Made by a program: the position numbers and the translations under genes
Assembly: GCF_013366925.1 (NCBI RefSeq)
Contig: NZ_JAALDK010000001.1
Coordinates: 2,859,089-2,923,088 of the forward strand
Length of the DNA stretch: 64,000 nucleotides
Source: Paraburkholderia youngii
GTDB taxonomy: Bacteria > Pseudomonadota > Gammaproteobacteria > Burkholderiales > Burkholderiaceae
Reading direction: 5' to 3'
Part shown: piece after piece, positions 31,658 through 39,306 of the stretch
Layout: every line of letters starts with the position of its first letter
How positions within the stretch are numbered: the stretch's first letter is position 1
The notes under the pieces: model-generated
Databases searched by the model: none
Told to the model about the DNA's origin: nothing
Seen by the model: only the letters and a program-made list of their open reading frames with translations

Positions 31658-33067
31658 ATGGCACAGACTCTCTACGACAAATTGTGGAACACGCACGTGG
31701 TCCACACGGAAGACGACGGCACCGCGATTCTCTACATCGACCGTCACCTGCTGCATGAAGTGACCAGCCCGCAGGCGTTCGAAGGCCTGAAAATGGCTCA
31801 CCGTCCGGTGTGGCGCATCAGCGCGAACCTGGCCGTGTCCGACCACAACGTGCCAACCACGGACCGCAGCCACGGCATCGCCGATCCGGTCTCGAAGCTG
31901 CAGGTCGACACGCTCGACGCGAACTGCGACGCCTTCGGCATCACGCAGTTCAAGATGAACGACCAGCGTCAGGGCATCGTCCACATCATCGGGCCGGAAC
32001 AGGGCGCTACGCTGCCGGGTATGACGATCGTCTGCGGCGACTCGCACACGTCCACGCACGGCGCGTTCGGCGCGCTCGCGCATGGCATCGGCACGTCGGA
32101 AGTCGAGCACGTGCTGGCCACGCAAACGCTGCTGCAGAAGAAGAGCAAGAACATGCTCGTCAAGGTCGAGGGGCAATTGCCGCGCGGCTGTACCGCGAAG
32201 GACATCGTGCTCGCGATCATCGGCAAGATCGGCACCGCGGGCGGTACCGGTTACGCGATGGAATTCGGCGGCTCGACGATCCGTTCGCTGACGATGGAGG
32301 GCCGAATGACGGTCTGCAACATGGCGATCGAAGCGGGCGCGCGCGCCGGCATGGTCGCCGTCGACGACACCACGGTCGAATACCTGAAAGGCCGTCCGTT
32401 CTCGCCGCAGGGCGTCGAGTGGGATCACGCGGTCGAGTACTGGAAGCAGTTCAAGTCGGACGAGGGCGCGCATTTCGATCGCGTGGTCGAGCTGAACGCG
32501 GCCGAAATCGTGCCGCAGGTGACTTGGGGCACGTCGCCGGAAATGGTCACGCCGGTCGACGGCCGCGTGCCGGATCCGGAGCGCGAGAAGGACCCGGTCA
32601 AGCGCGACGCGATGGAGCGTGCGCTCAAGTACATGGCGCTCGAGCCGAACGCGCCGATCGAGTCGATCAAGCCGGATAAAATCTTCATCGGGTCGTGCAC
32701 CAACGCGCGCATCGAAGACATTCGCGCCGCGGCTTACGTCGTGAAGAAGCTCGGCCGCCGCCTCGCGCCGAACATCCGTCTGGCGATGGTCGTGCCGGGT
32801 TCGGGGCTCGTGAAGGCGCAGGCGGAGCGTGAAGGCCTCGACAAGGTCTTTACCGAGGCCGGGTTCGAATGGCGTGAACCGGGTTGCTCGATGTGTCTGG
32901 CGATGAACGCCGACCGGCTCGAGCCGGGCGAGCGCTGCGCGTCCACGTCGAACCGGAACTTCGAAGGTCGTCAGGGCGCCGGTGGGCGCACGCACCTGGT
33001 GAGCCCCGCAATGGCCGCGGCTGCAGCCATCGAAGGGCATTTCGTCGACATTCGCAAGCTTGGATGA
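31658..33067 (+). CDS. leuC: 3-isopropylmalate dehydratase large subunit
   Basis: A 469-residue aconitase-superfamily subunit that, with LeuD, isomerises 2- to 3-isopropylmalate in leucine biosynthesis. The [4Fe-4S] cluster cysteines lie in [13 protein letters not shown] and [26 protein letters not shown] and NFEGRQG are further family motifs. It is the first gene of leuC-entericidin-leuD-leuB and overlaps the next gene by four bases (ATGA). Confidence 0.97.
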
Positions 33068-33231
33068 ATCGCATGATGAAGAACATGAATCGCATCACTC
33101 TATTGCGCCGCTTCGCACTCGGCACGCTCGCCGGGCTTCTGCTCGGCCTCGCCGGATGCAACACGGTGCACGGATTCGGCCAGGACATGTCGCACCTCGG
33201 CAATTCGATCAGCAATCACGCTGAGAAATAA
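33064..33231 (+). CDS. entericidin A/B family small lipoprotein
   Basis: A 55-residue lipoprotein with a basic N terminus, hydrophobic core and lipobox LAGC ([18 protein letters not shown]). The mature peptide of about 24 residues, [18 protein letters not shown], is typical of entericidins, small envelope lipoproteins linked in E. coli to stress-induced lysis. The ATG at 33064 overlaps the leuC stop; other in-frame ATGs at 33073, 33076 and 33085 are possible starts. It lies inside the leu operon between the two isopropylmalate isomerase subunits. Confidence 0.85.
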
Positions 33232-33314
33232 GCGGTTTTTGATTTTTGCCGGCGATGCGGCGCGGGGGTCCAACCGCCGGTCGCATCGCCCGGTCCTGAA
33301 CAGGCGCAAGCGTC

Positions 33315-33968
33315 ATGGATAAATTCATCGTACACACCGGCGTCGTGGCGCCGCTCGATCGCGAGAACGTCGACACGGACGCGATCATTCCGAAGCAGTT
33401 CCTGAAGTCGATCAAGCGCACGGGCTTCGGTCCGAACGCGTTCGACGAATGGCGCTACCTCGACCACGGCGAACCGGGTCAGGACAACTCGAAGCGTCCG
33501 CTGAACCCGGACTTCGTGCTGAACCAGCCGCGCTATCAGGGCGCCTCGGTGCTGCTCGCGCGCAAGAATTTCGGTTGCGGCAGCTCGCGCGAACACGCGC
33601 CCTGGGCGTTGCAGCAGTACGGCTTTCGCGCACTGATCGCGCCGAGCTTCGCCGACATCTTTTACAACAACTGCTTCAAGAACGGCGTGCTGCCGATCGT
33701 GCTGACCGAACAGCAGGTCGATCATCTGTTCAACGAGACGTACGCATTCAACGGCTTCGAGCTGACGATCGACCTCGAAGCGCAAGTCGTGCGCACGGCC
33801 GACGGCGGCACCGAATATCCGTTCGAAGTCGCGGCGTTCCGCAAGTACTGCCTGCTGAACGGTTTCGACGACATCGGTCTCACGCTGCGTCACGCGGACA
33901 AGATCCGCCAGTTCGAAGCGGAGCGTCTCGCGAAGCAACCGTGGCTGAACAATCGCCTCGTCCGTTAG
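33315..33968 (+). CDS. leuD: 3-isopropylmalate dehydratase small subunit
   Basis: A 217-residue swivel-domain subunit that partners LeuC. The conserved blocks [27 protein letters not shown] and [16 protein letters not shown] contain the substrate-binding residues. It is separated from leuC by the entericidin gene and an 83-base spacer. Confidence 0.97.
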
Positions 33969-34055
33969 GCGAACCCGTGAGAACGTAGGCGCGTCTGGTC
34001 CGCGCCCGCGTCGGTTTGCGCGAAAAACACCCGAAAAAATCATCAAGGAATTCGC

Positions 34056-35123
34056 ATGAAGATCGCAGTATTGCCGGGCGACGGCATCGGTCCCGAAATC
34101 GTCAAGGAGGCCGTCAAGGTCCTGAACGTGCTCGGCGAGAAGTTCGAACTCGAAGAAGCGCCGGTCGGCGGCGCGGGCTACGAAGCGAAGGGCCATCCGC
34201 TGCCCGATTCGACGCTCGCACTGGCGAAGGAAGCCGACGCGATCCTGTTCGGCGCGGTCGGCGACTGGAAATACGACAAGCTCGAACGCGCTCTGCGCCC
34301 GGAGCAGGCGATCCTCGGTCTGCGCAAGCACCTGGAACTGTTCGCGAACTTCCGTCCGGCGATCTGCTACCCGCAACTGACGGGTGCGTCGTCGCTGAAG
34401 GAAGAGATCGTTTCGGGTCTCGACATCCTGATCGTGCGCGAACTGAACGGCGACATCTACTTCGGCGCGCCGCGCGGCGTGCGTACGTCGCCGGACGGCC
34501 TGTTCGCCGGCGCGAAGGAAGGCTTCGACACGATGCGCTATTCGGAACCGGAAGTGCGCCGCATCGCGCACGTCGCGTTCCAGGCGGCGCAAAAGCGCGG
34601 CAAGAAGCTGACCTCGGTCGATAAAGCCAATGTGCTCGAAACGTCGCAGTTCTGGAAGGACGTGATGATCGACGTGTCGAAGGAATATGCGGACGTCGAG
34701 CTGTCGCACATGTACGTCGACAACGCCGCGATGCAGCTCGTGAAGGCGCCGAAGTCGTTCGACGTGATCGTGACGGGCAACATGTTCGGCGACATCCTTT
34801 CCGACGAAGCGGCCATGCTGACCGGCTCGATCGGCATGCTGCCGTCGGCGTCGCTCGACAAGAACAACAAGGGCTTGTACGAGCCGTCGCACGGTTCCGC
34901 GCCGGATATCGCCGGCAAGGGCGTTGCGAATCCGCTCGCTACGATTCTCTCCGCCGCGATGATGTTGCGCTATTCGTTGAATAAGGCCGAGCAGGCTGAT
35001 CGCATCGAAACCGCGGTGAAGAAGGTGCTCGAACAAGGCTATCGCACCGGCGACATTCTCACGCCGGGTTGCAAGCAGGTCGGCACCGCCGCGATGGGTG
35101 ATGCCGTCGTGGCCGCGCTGTAA
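34056..35123 (+). CDS. leuB: 3-isopropylmalate dehydrogenase
   Basis: A 355-residue NAD-dependent enzyme that oxidises and decarboxylates 3-isopropylmalate. It has the N-terminal [12 protein letters not shown], substrate arginines in [25 protein letters not shown], the metal/NAD block [27 protein letters not shown], and the cofactor loop [14 protein letters not shown]. It ends the leu cluster and is followed by a hairpin that separates it from the asd leader. Confidence 0.97.
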
Positions 35124-35163
35124 AACGCGTGCAGTAGTTAGATCACCAATACTGATCGTTAAA

Positions 35164-35197
35164 GCGCGAATCCGCCTTGAAACAGGCCGATTCGCGC
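35164..35197 (+). terminator. hairpin after leuB
   Basis: A perfect 9-bp stem GCGCGAATC/GATTCGCGC with a 16-base loop lies 40 bases after the leuB stop. There is no T-run, so termination here is a guess. Confidence 0.45.
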
Positions 35198-35249
35198 GTC
35201 ATACGGCGAAGAACGCCGCCAGTTTTCTGTTTTCGTGTATATTGTTGCG

Positions 35250-35366
35250 ATGGCTCAGATCTCCCAAATCTCCTCGATTTCCAAATTGCACGGCACAACG
35301 GCCCGTGCAATCGAGTTCGCCATTACCATCAAAACCATTACCCCGAAAACGATCACGAAGCGCTGA
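35250..35366 (+). CDS. Ile/Thr/Lys-rich leader peptide upstream of asd
   Basis: A 38-codon ORF starts with ATG at 35250 (MAQISQISSISK...) and ends with TGA at 35364-35366, 84 bases before asd. Residues 25-37 are four Ile, five Thr, three Lys and one Pro (AITIKTITPKTITK). Thr, Ile and Lys are all made from aspartate semialdehyde, the product of Asd. The pattern is like ThrL of E. coli, the attenuation leader of thrABC. A 7-bp inverted repeat (ACGATCA 35349-35355, TGATCGT 35364-35370) overlaps its last codons and stop. It has no clear Shine-Dalgarno sequence; a TATATT seven bases upstream would give a near-leaderless transcript. I infer a regulatory, not structural, peptide. Confidence 0.6.
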   Translation: MAQISQISSISKLHGTTARAIEFAITIKTITPKTITKR

Positions 35367-35384
35367 TCGTCCGTCGTGCCCGCC

Positions 35385-35426
35385 CATCTTCCCCGCGCGG
35401 TCACTGCGGGCAAAGATGCGGGGAAG
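35385..35426 (+). promoter_or_regulatory. two mutually exclusive hairpins in the asd leader
   Basis: Hairpin A pairs CATCTT (35385-35390) with AAGATG (35413-35418), and CCCGC with GCGGG inside. Hairpin B pairs CTTCCCCGC (35388-35396) with GCGGGGAAG (35418-35426), followed by TTT. They share the same left arm, so only one can form. Hairpin B resembles a terminator but with a weak T-run. Confidence 0.5.
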
Positions 35427-35450
35427 TTTCCATTCGAAGGGTATGAAGTC

Positions 35451-36572
35451 ATGAACGTAGGTCTCGTAGGTTGGCGCGGCATGGTCGGCAGCGTCCTGAT
35501 GCAACGCATGCAGCAGGAAGGCGATTTCGACTTGATCGAACCGGTGTTTTTCAGCACCAGCAACGCGGGTGGCAACGCGCCGTCGTTCGCCAAAAACGAG
35601 ACCAAGCTCAAAGATGCGACAAGCATCGAAGACCTGAAGAAGTGCGACGCGATCATCTCCTGCCAAGGCGGTGACTACACGAACGAAGTGTTCCCGAAGC
35701 TGCGCGCGGCCGGCTGGAACGGTTACTGGATCGACGCGGCTTCGTCGCTGCGCATGAAGGACGATGCGGTCATCATTCTCGATCCGGTCAACCTCGACGT
35801 GATCAAGAACGCGCTCGTCAAAGGTCAGAAGAACTTCATCGGCGGCAACTGCACGGTCAGCCTCATGCTGATGGCGCTGGGCGGCCTGTTCCGCGAAAAC
35901 CTCGTCGACTGGATGACGGCCATGACTTACCAGGCCGCATCGGGCGCGGGCGCGCAGAACATGCGCGAATTGCTGTCACAAATGGGCACGCTGAACGGCG
36001 CGGTGAAGAACGAACTGGCTGACCCGGCTTCGGCGATTCTCGACATCGACCGCCGCGTGCTCGAAGCGATGAACAGCGACAGCATGCCGACCGACCATTT
36101 CGGCGTGCCGCTCGCGGGCTCGCTGATTCCGTGGATCGACAAGGATCTCGGCAACGGCATGTCGAAGGAAGAGTGGAAGGGCGGCGCGGAAACCAACAAG
36201 ATTCTCGGCAAGCCGGCCATGGGCACGCCGGGTTCGATTCCGGTCGACGGTCTATGCGTGCGAATCGGCGCAATGCGCTGTCACTCGCAAGCGCTGACGA
36301 TCAAGCTGAACAAGGACGTGCCGCTCGACGAAGTGAATAGCATCCTCGCGTCGGGCAACGACTGGGTCAAGGTCGTGCCGAACGAGCGCGAAGCGTCGAT
36401 GCGCGATCTGTCCCCGGCGGTCGTCACCGGTACGCTGACGGTGCCGGTCGGCCGCGTGCGCAAGCTCGCGATGGGTGGCGAATATCTGTCGGCCTTCACG
36501 GTCGGCGATCAGCTGCTGTGGGGCGCGGCTGAACCGCTGCGTCGTATGCTTCGCATTGTGCTCGACAAGTAA
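35451..36572 (+). CDS. asd: aspartate-semialdehyde dehydrogenase
   Basis: A 373-residue NADPH-dependent enzyme that reduces aspartyl phosphate to aspartate semialdehyde, the branch point to lysine/diaminopimelate, threonine, isoleucine and methionine. The NADP site [18 protein letters not shown] is at the N terminus and the catalytic Cys is Cys134 in [11 protein letters not shown]. It is the proteobacterial long form. The ATG at 35451 has CGAAGGG at a good distance; the longer open frame begins inside the leader hairpins. A strong terminator follows. Confidence 0.97.
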
Positions 36573-36609
36573 AGTAAACTACGCGCTCACGACGCGTAGA
36601 CAACTCAAG

Positions 36610-36638
36610 AAGCGTCGCGCTTGCGCGGCGCTTTTTTT
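36610..36638 (+). terminator. intrinsic terminator of asd
   Basis: A stem AAGCGTCGCGC/GCGCGGCGCTT (one G-T pair) is followed by seven T, 40 bases after the asd stop. Confidence 0.88.
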
Positions 36639-36711
36639 CATTCTGTGCTCCGATCATCTTGTCTCTTTCCACTCGCAAAAAAGGCTGCGCGCTGACGCGC
36701 CAGGAGTCCCG

Positions 36712-39306
36712 ATGAACTTTCGACGCTCCGCTCTTCGGGCCATGTTCATTCGTCACGAGAAGGTGCGATTCAGCGGCCGTCCGGCGGCGATGGCCGCTGG
36801 TGCCGCTTTCGCCATTGCTTTGCTCGGCGGTGGCCCGGGCAATGCGCTTGCCGCGCCGGCTCGTGCCACGGGCACGCCGGATACCGCTTCCGCTGCCAGT
36901 TCCACTACCGCTGTCGTTGCCGTCGCCGCGGGCGCGCAGTACACCGTACACGCAGGGCAGTCGCTGAACGATGTCGCGATCGCTATTACGCAGTCGCATG
37001 ACCGCGCGGTTCTCGCGCGCGCGACGCGCGCATTGTTCGACACGAATCCGGCTGCGTTCATGAATCACGATCCGAGCCGCATGCGTGTGGGCGCGGTGTT
37101 GATTGTGCCGGCTCTCGATGCGTCGGGGGCCTTGGCGGCTTCGTCGACTGGGGCCGCGGCGGGGGCGTCCGAGTCCACGGCGGCTGTGCCCGCTTCCGCG
37201 CCGACGGCGGCACCTGCCGAGGCTGCGGCCAGCACGGCGAGTGCGGCCAGCGCCGCAGCTCAAGCGACGACGCCAGCCGCATCCGAGGTCTCTGGCGCGG
37301 CCAGCGCGGCGGTATCGACTGGCGCGGCGGCGGGCGGCTTGGCTTCGTCCGCGCCATTGGCCGGTTCGGGGCCCGTGGCGGCGAGTGGCACGCAGGAATG
37401 GACCGGATCGATTCAATCGGCGGCGAGCGCGCCTGCCGGGCAAGCGCCGTCGGCGGCAACCGCTACTGCACCGGCGGCCACAGCCGCGCAAGCGGCTTCG
37501 CAGCCGCGTCAGCAGGTGTCGAGTCTGCAGCAACTGCTGGCGCTGAAAAACCGTGTGCTGATGGAATTGCAGAAACACGGTATCGGCGGGGTGCCGGTCG
37601 CTTCGGGCCCGAAGCCGACGAGCGCTGCGCAGCCCGCAGCGGCAGGTTCAGCGGCGACAGTGCCCGTGGCGCCGCAGCACGCGAATGCGGCGACGTCGCC
37701 GTCGAATGAGGGCGGCCTGTCTCCGCACAATTTGAGCATCGCGGCGGCGGTGGGTGCGGCATTGGTCGTTCTGCTCGCGGCTCTGCGCATGGGTCGCCGC
37801 AAGCGCGAAAAGGAGGCTGCGGCGCGGGCTGCCGAGACGACTGATACCTCAGTGGCGGGATCGGCGGATAACGCCGATTCGCACGATGGCAGCGCGGTGG
37901 CAGGGCAGGCAGCGGTCACGGAAGCATCGGGCGCGCAAGATCAGGAGCTTGCGCGGCAGGCTGCTGCGGCGGCAGCGGCGGAGCATGCGGCTGCGGAGCG
38001 TGAGGCAGCCGAGCGGGCAGCGGCAGAAAGCGCGGCGGCAGAACGTGCAGAGGCCGAGCAGGCCGCTGCGGAAAGAGCCGCAGCCGAACAGGCCGCAGAG
38101 GAGCGAGCAGCAGCAGAGCGAGCAGCAGCAGAGCGAGCAGCAGCCGAGGAACATGCCGCGGCCGAACGCGTGGCAGCGGAACGCGCAGCAGCCGAACAAG
38201 CAGCAGCCGAACAAGCAGCAGCCGAACAAGCAGCAGCCGAACAAGCAGCAGCCGAACAGGCAGCAGCCGAACAGGCAGCGGCACGCGTCGCCGCCGAACA
38301 TGTGGAGGCGGAACGCACAGCAGCAGCGCGCATCGCAGCCGAGCGCGCCGCAGAGGAACCGGCGACACAGCATGCAGGCACGCCCGAACCCACCGCACCG
38401 ACGGCGCCACTCGCCGGCATCCCGCCGTCCAGCGAAAGCGAGCCGTCCACTGAGCCTCCATCGCTCGCACCGGCCACCGACGAGACGCTGCGCTCCGCGG
38501 CCACGGCCGCCAATCTCGCCGCCGCGGCAGAACTCGGCGCCGACGCGTTGCCGCTGGGGCCGCTCGAACCGGCCATCGGTGCAACGCAGGACGACGAGAA
38601 CGCGCATCGTGTGCAATGGGACGAGGAATCCACAGAAAGCCCGACCGCACCGCACACCGCGACGGCTGAACCGCAGTCTCCCCTGAACGTTCCACCCCCA
38701 GTGATCGATTTCACGCAACACCAGATCGAACCGCGCGCTACCACGTCGCTCGGTCAGCCGTTAGGCGACATCCCCGTGCCGACGCAACCCACGCCGTCCG
38801 CGCCGACCGACTTCCCGCGCGACGCCGTCGACGCATTCGGCAGCCTGAACATGCCGCTGCCGCCGCGCATCGAAGTGCCCACCGTCGGCGAAGCGGTGCC
38901 GTCCACGTCGCTGTCGACGCAACCGGTCGCATCGCCCGACACGACCGCGCAGCAGGCCTTCGGCGTCCACGGCGCGGACGACGACGCGCCGCACATCGCC
39001 GACCAGATCGCCGCCGGCACAGCGGGTCACGGCGCCGTCGCGGGTCTCGGCGCGGCTGGCTTCGGCGCGCTGAAGCTCGACTTCGACCTCGAGTTGCCGC
39101 CGAGCCCGGCCCAGCCGCTGCCGGCCTTCACGCCGGCCGATCTCGCCCGCATCGCGCGCAACAAGCTGGAGTTGGCCTCCGAGTACATCGAGCTCGGCGA
39201 TCTGGGGGGCGCCCGCGCGCTCATCAACGAAGTGATCGAAGCGAACGATCCAGCCACGCGCACCGAAGCCCGCGCGTTGCTTTCGACCCTCGCGCCGCTG
39301 TCGTGA
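36712..39306 (+). CDS. fimV: FimV/HubP-family polar landmark protein
   Basis: An 864-residue inner-membrane protein of the FimV/HubP family. In order: a signal-like N terminus (to about residue 48), a periplasmic LysM-type domain at about 77-133 ([16 protein letters not shown] ... VGAVLIVP) that binds peptidoglycan, a Pro/Ala/Ser linker, a transmembrane helix at about 341-360 followed by MGRRKREKE, a long Ala/Glu/Arg/Gln coiled coil, an acidic cytoplasmic region, and the conserved C-terminal FimV domain ([31 protein letters not shown]). FimV organises cell poles, type IV pili and chemotaxis. AGGAG precedes the ATG. Position between asd and truA matches Pseudomonas fimV. The coiled coil contains a perfect 15-bp tandem repeat. 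Confidence 0.85.
38185..38274 (+). repeat. 15-bp tandem repeat (6 copies) in fimV
   Basis: Six consecutive copies of GCAGCAGCCGAACAA (the last two ending CAG) encode AAAEQ in frame. A copy-number change would add or remove whole heptad-like pieces of coiled coil without a frameshift. More degenerate copies (GAGCGAGCAGCAGCA) lie just upstream near 38105. Confidence 0.92.

Follow-up and report, generated by a model that had tools for sequence, protein, structure and literature searches.

A short open reading frame (ORF) whose tail is enriched in codons for threonine, isoleucine and lysine was found upstream of asd, the gene encoding aspartate-semialdehyde dehydrogenase (Asd), in a 64,000 nt stretch of the Paraburkholderia youngii genome (contig NZ_JAALDK010000001.1, positions 2,859,089–2,923,088; the whole stretch is referred to as the window). 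This ORF belongs to a conserved leader-peptide element that is real and goes well beyond chance. The routes to Lys and the cell-wall component diaminopimelate, to Thr and Ile and to Met branch off at asd, and Thr, Ile and Lys are products of the pathway fed by Asd. A reading of the window without database searches (the sequence-only reading) had proposed a Thr/Ile/Lys-sensing attenuator at this site, and the proposal is supported by the conservation of the ORF, of its bias and of its position and by compensatory changes in the hairpins. It is probable, judging from these sequence features, that a leader-peptide switch controls asd. A family-wide switch without a terminator, which would combine a leaderless start where ribosomes load at the extreme 5' end, three end products read in one tail and a kinetic hairpin acting on asd translation and not on transcription, is suggested only tentatively.

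Leader ORF and Its Codon Bias

Direct reading of the sequence gave the ORF of 38 codons that had been described earlier. It encodes the peptide MAQISQISSISKLHGTTARAIEFAITIKTITPKTITKR, and a spacer of 84 nt (35367–35450) separates its stop codon from the asd ATG (35451); the coordinates of the main features are collected in Table 1. Residues 25–37 comprise four Ile, five Thr, three Lys and one Pro, in agreement with the sequence-only reading. Thr, Ile or Lys (T/I/K) account for 12 of the final 14 residues, compared with a T+I+K fraction of 0.154 in Asd proteins (binomial P ~1e-8). Among the 374 short ATG ORFs of 20–80 residues on both strands of the window, one had at least 11 T/I/K among its last 14 residues. 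At the level of sequence, the locus has what characterizes an attenuator, namely a short ORF with clustered codons for the end products of a pathway.

Leaders of related genomes were retained when at least 9 of the final 14 codons were T/I/K, which gave 108 sequences (47 from named loci, 60 model-derived and the window, whose own copy is L097); one leader with 8 such codons (L038) was dropped. T/I/K made up 79% of the last 14 residues vs. 26% of the remainder of the peptide, the AAA codon was used for Lys in 92% of cases in the leaders vs. 9% in asd and ATT for Ile in 56% vs. 21%, and Thr codon usage was the same as in asd; these values were computed on the retained leaders. Tails such as TTIKTITKKTIS and ATTIKTITKKAIA occur in further genera.

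A minimum spanning tree of the 72 distinct tails (edges up to 6 nt) contained 37 synonymous codon changes, 22 exchanges of T/I/K for T/I/K, 31 changes of T/I/K to other residues and 15 changes among other residues. The corresponding expectation for single changes at T/I/K codons is 24% synonymous, 14% T/I/K to T/I/K and 62% T/I/K to other, the comparison being rough because the synonymous count also takes in codons other than T/I/K. This pattern indicates that T, I or K identity is maintained at the tail codons and that synonymous and T/I/K-to-T/I/K exchanges are favoured.

Distribution of the Leader in Related Genomes

The Asd protein scan gave a list of loci, and the best 80 of this longer list were taken as named loci. 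A homologous short ORF was found 81–93 nt upstream of asd in 48 of these 80, which belong to Burkholderia, Paraburkholderia, Caballeronia, Trinickia and one Cupriavidus. No such leader was present in 31 of the 80, including Massilia, Duganella, Noviherbaspirillum, one Pandoraea, Limnobacter and Collimonas, and the last locus (L049), truncated upstream, was left unjudged. A covariance model (R1) was built from the last 14 codons, the spacer and the asd start. Within the family, 192 of the 299 genomes and 9 of the 25 genera were matched by it, the P. youngii genome a single time; in an even draw of the order, 3 of 200 genomes were matched, all within the same family. All 60 inspected model-derived loci from the 192 matched genomes contained the ORF with 9–12 T/I/K in the final 14 codons. 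The asd gene was present in each of the 16 checked genomes lacking an R1 match, and in the 14 of them in which the script recognised the asd start no T/I/K-rich ORF was found before asd (maximum 6 of 14).

According to the sequence-only reading, relatives should carry a short ORF with Ile/Thr/Lys codons that shows synonymous changes, as well as covariation in the hairpins, and these features were indeed observed in the leader-bearing loci, both named and model-derived. Conversely, it held that a lack of conservation of the ORF and its bias would speak against it, which is contradicted by their conservation over nine genera.

The Rfam covariance models, including that of the thr operon leader, gave no match overlapping the leader; four weak matches (E up to 1) were located elsewhere in the region 33000–38000. 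No T/I/K leader was detected near hom of the P. youngii genome in locus L158. In the literature searched, we recognised no description of an asd leader peptide in this bacterial group, and a term search of the main-text portions of PMC4603805, PMC5688073, PMC7563307, PMC10175445, PMC2965389 and PMC3521395 found no mention of asd.

Two genomes of 1.2 Mb from one genus differ in the state of the leader. In the AT-rich genome L141 the tail TIILTRKTIKT is retained and the B:D hairpin described below is rebuilt with different letters. In L146 stops interrupt the leader ORF, and directly after a remnant tail (TIIRT) come an A/T palindrome and then a T-run, which may represent a terminator or decay.

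Putative Promoter and Predicted Leaderless Start

A -10-like box, overlooked by the sequence-only reading, was found immediately upstream of the leader ATG. Such a box ends 6–9 nt before the ATG in 101 of the 108 leaders; among 93 unique sequences it reads TAGACT in 51, TATATT in 40 and TAAACT in 2. The other seven leaders fall outside this pattern, and TACACT (L131), TAAATT (L043) and TAAAAT (L044) were recognised there by eye. The -35 hexamer is weak, with four of six bases matched in 7 of the 101 leaders and never more. A Shine–Dalgarno (SD)-like tetramer was found before the leader ATG in none of the 101 leaders and before asd in all 108.

The conserved position of the -10 box and the absence of an SD sequence before the leader ATG allow us to assume that transcription probably starts at about the A of this ATG, and that the leader would then be translated from a leaderless mRNA without an SD sequence. 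Leaderless mRNAs have been reported in Burkholderia cenocepacia and Cupriavidus metallidurans (PMC4603805, PMC7563307).

Upstream of this promoter and after leuB, a strong hairpin without a T-run (9 pairs + 4; 35164–35197) is located, which may separate leuCDB transcription from that of asd. In addition, a small lipoprotein-like ORF (~33064–33231), putatively entericidin-like, lies between leuC and leuD.

Conserved RNA Pairings in the ORF and Spacer

One pairing joins segments 2 and 3 of the spacer (2:3). It was paired in 89.8% of the alignment cells and in at most 52.4% when the arms were slid, and changes on both sides were found in 15 cells, compared with 3.2 by shuffling. The pairs CCGC:GCGG are replaced by CUGC:GCAG in 11 Cupriavidus-like sequences, part of the helix is replaced by CCAGU:ACUGG in another genus, and in L132 and L133 one base has been inserted into each arm at matching places. 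The duplex energy averages 2.2 sd below that of shuffled arms, and own arms outperformed most swapped arms in 42 of 56 combinations. This pairing, as well as the P0 hairpin within the ORF, had not been noticed in the sequence-only reading. The second pair of P0 is A:U in 56 leaders and G:C in 12, with no mixed cases (the search pattern left 33 of 101 leaders unmatched). Covariation thus supports P0 as a candidate hairpin, and a role in pausing of RNA polymerase is conceivable.

The 1:2 helix is the inverted repeat ACGATCA/TGATCGT that had been described before and was found again by direct reading. It is paired in 96.4% of cells of an alignment that was fitted to this same helix, and the probability (P) of pairing between the stop region and the tail of the ORF is 0.80 vs. 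0.23 in codon-shuffled ORFs. The B:D hairpin, located closest to asd, is paired in 99.5% of cells and nearly invariant. Six of its nine pairs are changed on both sides, each in the single sequence L141, where the arms read UAUUCUAAG:CUUAGAAUA. Note that L141 was excluded from the 2:3 and B:C swap tests and from the analyses of SD pairing, of D distance, tails and opening cost, of ribosome position and of codon-shuffled ORFs, as its arm letters differ or its start was unmatched.

In a long alternative hairpin, CCCGC at the end of segment 2 pairs with GCGGG of segment D, and segment B pairs with segment 3. Since these segments are shared or cross each other, 2:3 excludes both the long hairpin and B:D; mutually exclusive structures of this kind, antiterminator-like on one side and terminator-like on the other, thus lie downstream of the ORF with support from the alignment. 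The two exclusive hairpins that had been noted earlier (35385–35418 and 35388–35426) are likewise present as part of this larger layout with 1:2 and 2:3. The coexistence of 2:3 and B:D as a pseudoknot was judged unlikely on reasoning only, as a linker of a few bases would be unable to span a stem of ~15 pairs. The compensatory changes support P0, 2:3 and, in one lineage, B:D.

Table 1. Features of the asd leader region (positions in the window).
Feature	Position	Strand	Basis or role
-10-like box TATATT	35238..35243	+	6 nt before leader ATG; predicted transcription start at about the ATG
Leader peptide ORF	35250..35366	+	38 codons and stop; read directly
P0 hairpin within ORF, arms TTGCACGG...CCGTGCAA	35286..35310	+	Candidate RNA polymerase pause hairpin
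Regulatory Thr/Ile/Lys codons (final 14 codons)	35322..35363	+	T/I/K bias, codon usage, substitution pattern
1:2 helix, ACGATCA (35349–35355) with TGATCGT (35364–35370)	35349..35370	+	Spans last codons and stop
Segment 2 TCGTCCGTCGTGCCCGC	35367..35383	+	5' arm of 2:3 antiterminator-like hairpin
Segment B CTTCCCCGC	35388..35396	+	5' arm of B:D hairpin
Segment 3 GCGGTCACTGCGGGCAA	35397..35413	+	3' arm of 2:3; pairs with B in long alternative hairpin
Segment D GCGGGGAAG	35418..35426	+	3' arm of B:D; partner of CCCGC (35379–35383) in long alternative hairpin
asd Shine–Dalgarno AAGGG	35437..35441	+	SD-like tetramer before asd in 108/108 leaders
asd, aspartate-semialdehyde dehydrogenase, presumed controlled gene	35451..36572	+	99% identity over 373 residues to best named relative

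Proposed Mechanism and Folding Predictions

From the ORF, its amino-acid bias and the conserved pairings, we infer where the ribosome would stall, in which direction asd would respond and how the response would be read out. Transcription would start at or beside the leader ATG, the leader would be translated without an SD sequence, and RNA polymerase may pause at P0 during ribosome loading. With ample Thr-, Ile- and Lys-tRNA, the ribosome would reach the stop codon and cover the beginning of segment 2. Segment 3 would then pair with B, D would be drawn into a hairpin just ahead of the ribosome-binding site of asd, and asd expression would be lowered. If any of the three amino acids is short, the ribosome would stall in the tail and leave segment 2 free to form 2:3 ahead of the synthesis of D. 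Once 2:3 has formed, D would stay single-stranded and asd would be expressed.

Folding with the ribosome placed at different positions was used to evaluate this scheme in 69 leaders. For nascent RNA ending before D, P(2:3) increased as the ribosome was placed closer to the stop, from 0.54 at a distance of 12 codons through 0.62 (9 codons) and 0.66 (6 codons) to 0.73 (3 codons), and was 0.31 without a ribosome. With the ribosome at the stop it was 0.25; this fall has the direction that the scheme requires and is partly built in, because some of segment 2 is lost to the masking. In RNA just past D, P(B:D) was 0.17 with the ribosome at the stop vs. 0.09–0.12 in the stalled states, a small effect in the direction of the model.

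The built-in part of that fall has to be counted against the proposed switch, together with a number of other results. The value of P(2:3) without a ribosome is not below the 0.29 obtained with codon-shuffled ORFs (63 leaders), and a protective role of the 1:2 helix in the untranslated leader is accordingly unsupported. In whole leaders at equilibrium, the mean P(B:D) was 0.51 at the stop vs. 0.62–0.73 in stalled states, which is the reverse of the model; the value at the stop fell short of the stalled one by more than 0.1 in 28 of the 69 leaders and was higher in 5. A ribosome-dependent change of B:D at equilibrium was therefore not found in whole leaders and was on average reversed. In the window, P(B:D) remained at 0.78–0.96 across the states, and the accessibility of the SD sequence was 0.43–0.48 in every state. 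As for the alignment, the number of pair types in 2:3 did not exceed that of the shuffles (240 of 500 as high), its outer helix was paired in just 74.7% of cells, own arms ranked first in only two of five clades, several of the both-sided changes come from single lineages, and the swap test of a B:C hairpin gave no signal (0.53). Sequestration of the asd SD sequence or first codons by segment 2 was seen in folds at chance level (mean z +0.37 and +0.38, respectively; 85 leaders) and was rejected.

Since the equilibrium folds fail to give the switch, it would have to be kinetic. Such a basis could lie in the order of synthesis, with 2:3 complete before D exists and D then left free. In summary, the anatomy of the leader suggests ribosome-controlled regulation, and the switch is a prediction that equilibrium folding does not reproduce.

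Readout and Alternative Explanations

The 3' part of the leader points to translation initiation as the probable readout, with Rho-dependent termination in second place. This preference follows from the near-constant distance between D and the asd start and from the lack of a proper U-tract. In each of the 76 leaders measured, 20–27 nt separate the motif GGGGAA of segment D from the start codon of asd, and the linker between segment 3 and D varies widely in length. When B:D was forced instead of 2:3, opening the region -18..+12 cost 2.6 kcal/mol more on average and was more costly in 62 of these 76 leaders. It should be added that the reading frame of asd continues upstream without a stop as far as a GTG at 35376 (35376–36572); automated gene calling could lengthen asd so that it takes in the hairpins of the leader.

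A classical, thrL-like transcription attenuation, in which B:D or the long hairpin would act as an intrinsic terminator when amino acids are plentiful, would fit the layout of 1:2, 2:3 and 3:4-like pairings, the pathway-specific codons and the broken tail TTTCCATT after D in the window (5 T in 8 nt). However, the number of T in the 8 nt after D ranges from 1 to 5, reaching 5 in just 5 of 76 leaders and not exceeding 2 in 38, and the commonest tails among the 69 leaders compared by sequence are CGTCCACT, CTCCATTC and AATCACTA. No intrinsic terminator with a U-tract was thus found after D in either set, and such a terminator at the leader was judged unlikely from these tails. The terminator pattern scan also found none at the leader, which counts little, as its loops were limited to 3–8 nt and B:D is undetectable in this way; downstream of asd, the scan did find a stem and T-run. 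The doubt about the weak T-run expressed in the sequence-only reading is borne out, most leaders being without one, and we regard classical attenuation as distinctly unlikely. Leader-peptide control through Rho, where a stalled ribosome or 2:3 would keep Rho off a C-rich stretch before asd, agrees with the missing U-tract, the C-rich spacer and the conserved peptide. It does not lead one to expect the near-constant D-to-asd distance, and the spacer can fold strongly; this explanation appears rather unlikely.

The spacer could also be mainly the target of a trans-acting small RNA (sRNA) or protein, the ORF being incidental. Several arms are nearly invariant, and in Burkholderia thailandensis a CopraRNA prediction places the sRNA BTH_s1 on BTH_II0675 (asd) at -79..-54, overlapping the spacer (PMC4035088). 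That prediction is computational, and T/I/K identity, the pattern of codon exchanges and the -10 box at the ATG would all be left unexplained, which makes a trans-acting explanation improbable. Chance or a non-functional remnant, for which the loss of the intact ORF in one reduced genome (L146) could be quoted, is contradicted by conservation over nine genera with compensatory changes and can hardly be entertained.

Comparison with Known Leaders and Significance

ThrL, the leader of the thr operon, is a short Thr/Ile-rich ORF located before aspartate-family genes and followed by competing hairpins. The asd leader shares the short Thr- and Ile-rich reading frame, the position before an aspartate-family gene and the competing hairpins. 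In contrast to ThrL, it precedes asd, adds Lys codons, is probably leaderless and lacks a proper U-tract terminator; it has no Rfam match, and homology to ThrL is not claimed. For thrABC of enteric bacteria, ribosome-mediated attenuation by Thr and Ile has been described (PMC12925634). A leader ORF that starts at the transcript 5' end is reported for trpL/peTrpL of Sinorhizobium meliloti (PMC7298713), and the same arrangement is predicted for the asd leader from its sequence alone. The peTrpL system differs in that it serves a tryptophan operon with a transcription terminator, i.e., another gene in another lineage.

Predicted cys leaders of Mycobacterium also have a conserved peptide without an intrinsic terminator, and Rho has been proposed to act there (PMC1262725). 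The asd leader resembles them in its conserved peptide with pathway-product codons and in the absence of an intrinsic terminator; it differs in having conserved P0, 1:2, 2:3 and B:D pairings. In translational attenuators of the erm type, a stalled ribosome alters the fold near the downstream ribosome-binding site. A similar change of fold is proposed for asd, where, unlike in the erm type, pairing of segment 2 with the SD sequence is at chance level and the switch would presumably respond to the supply of amino acids and not to a drug.

If the proposed switch is true, this conserved element, absent from Rfam and present in 192 of the 299 sampled genomes of the family, would explain how three products are sensed together at a branch point. 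Textbook attenuation would also gain a terminator-less and probably leaderless example, which may act on translation. In the tentative reading of a family-wide switch, the asd leader would represent an amino-acid attenuator with translational readout in a GC-rich lineage.
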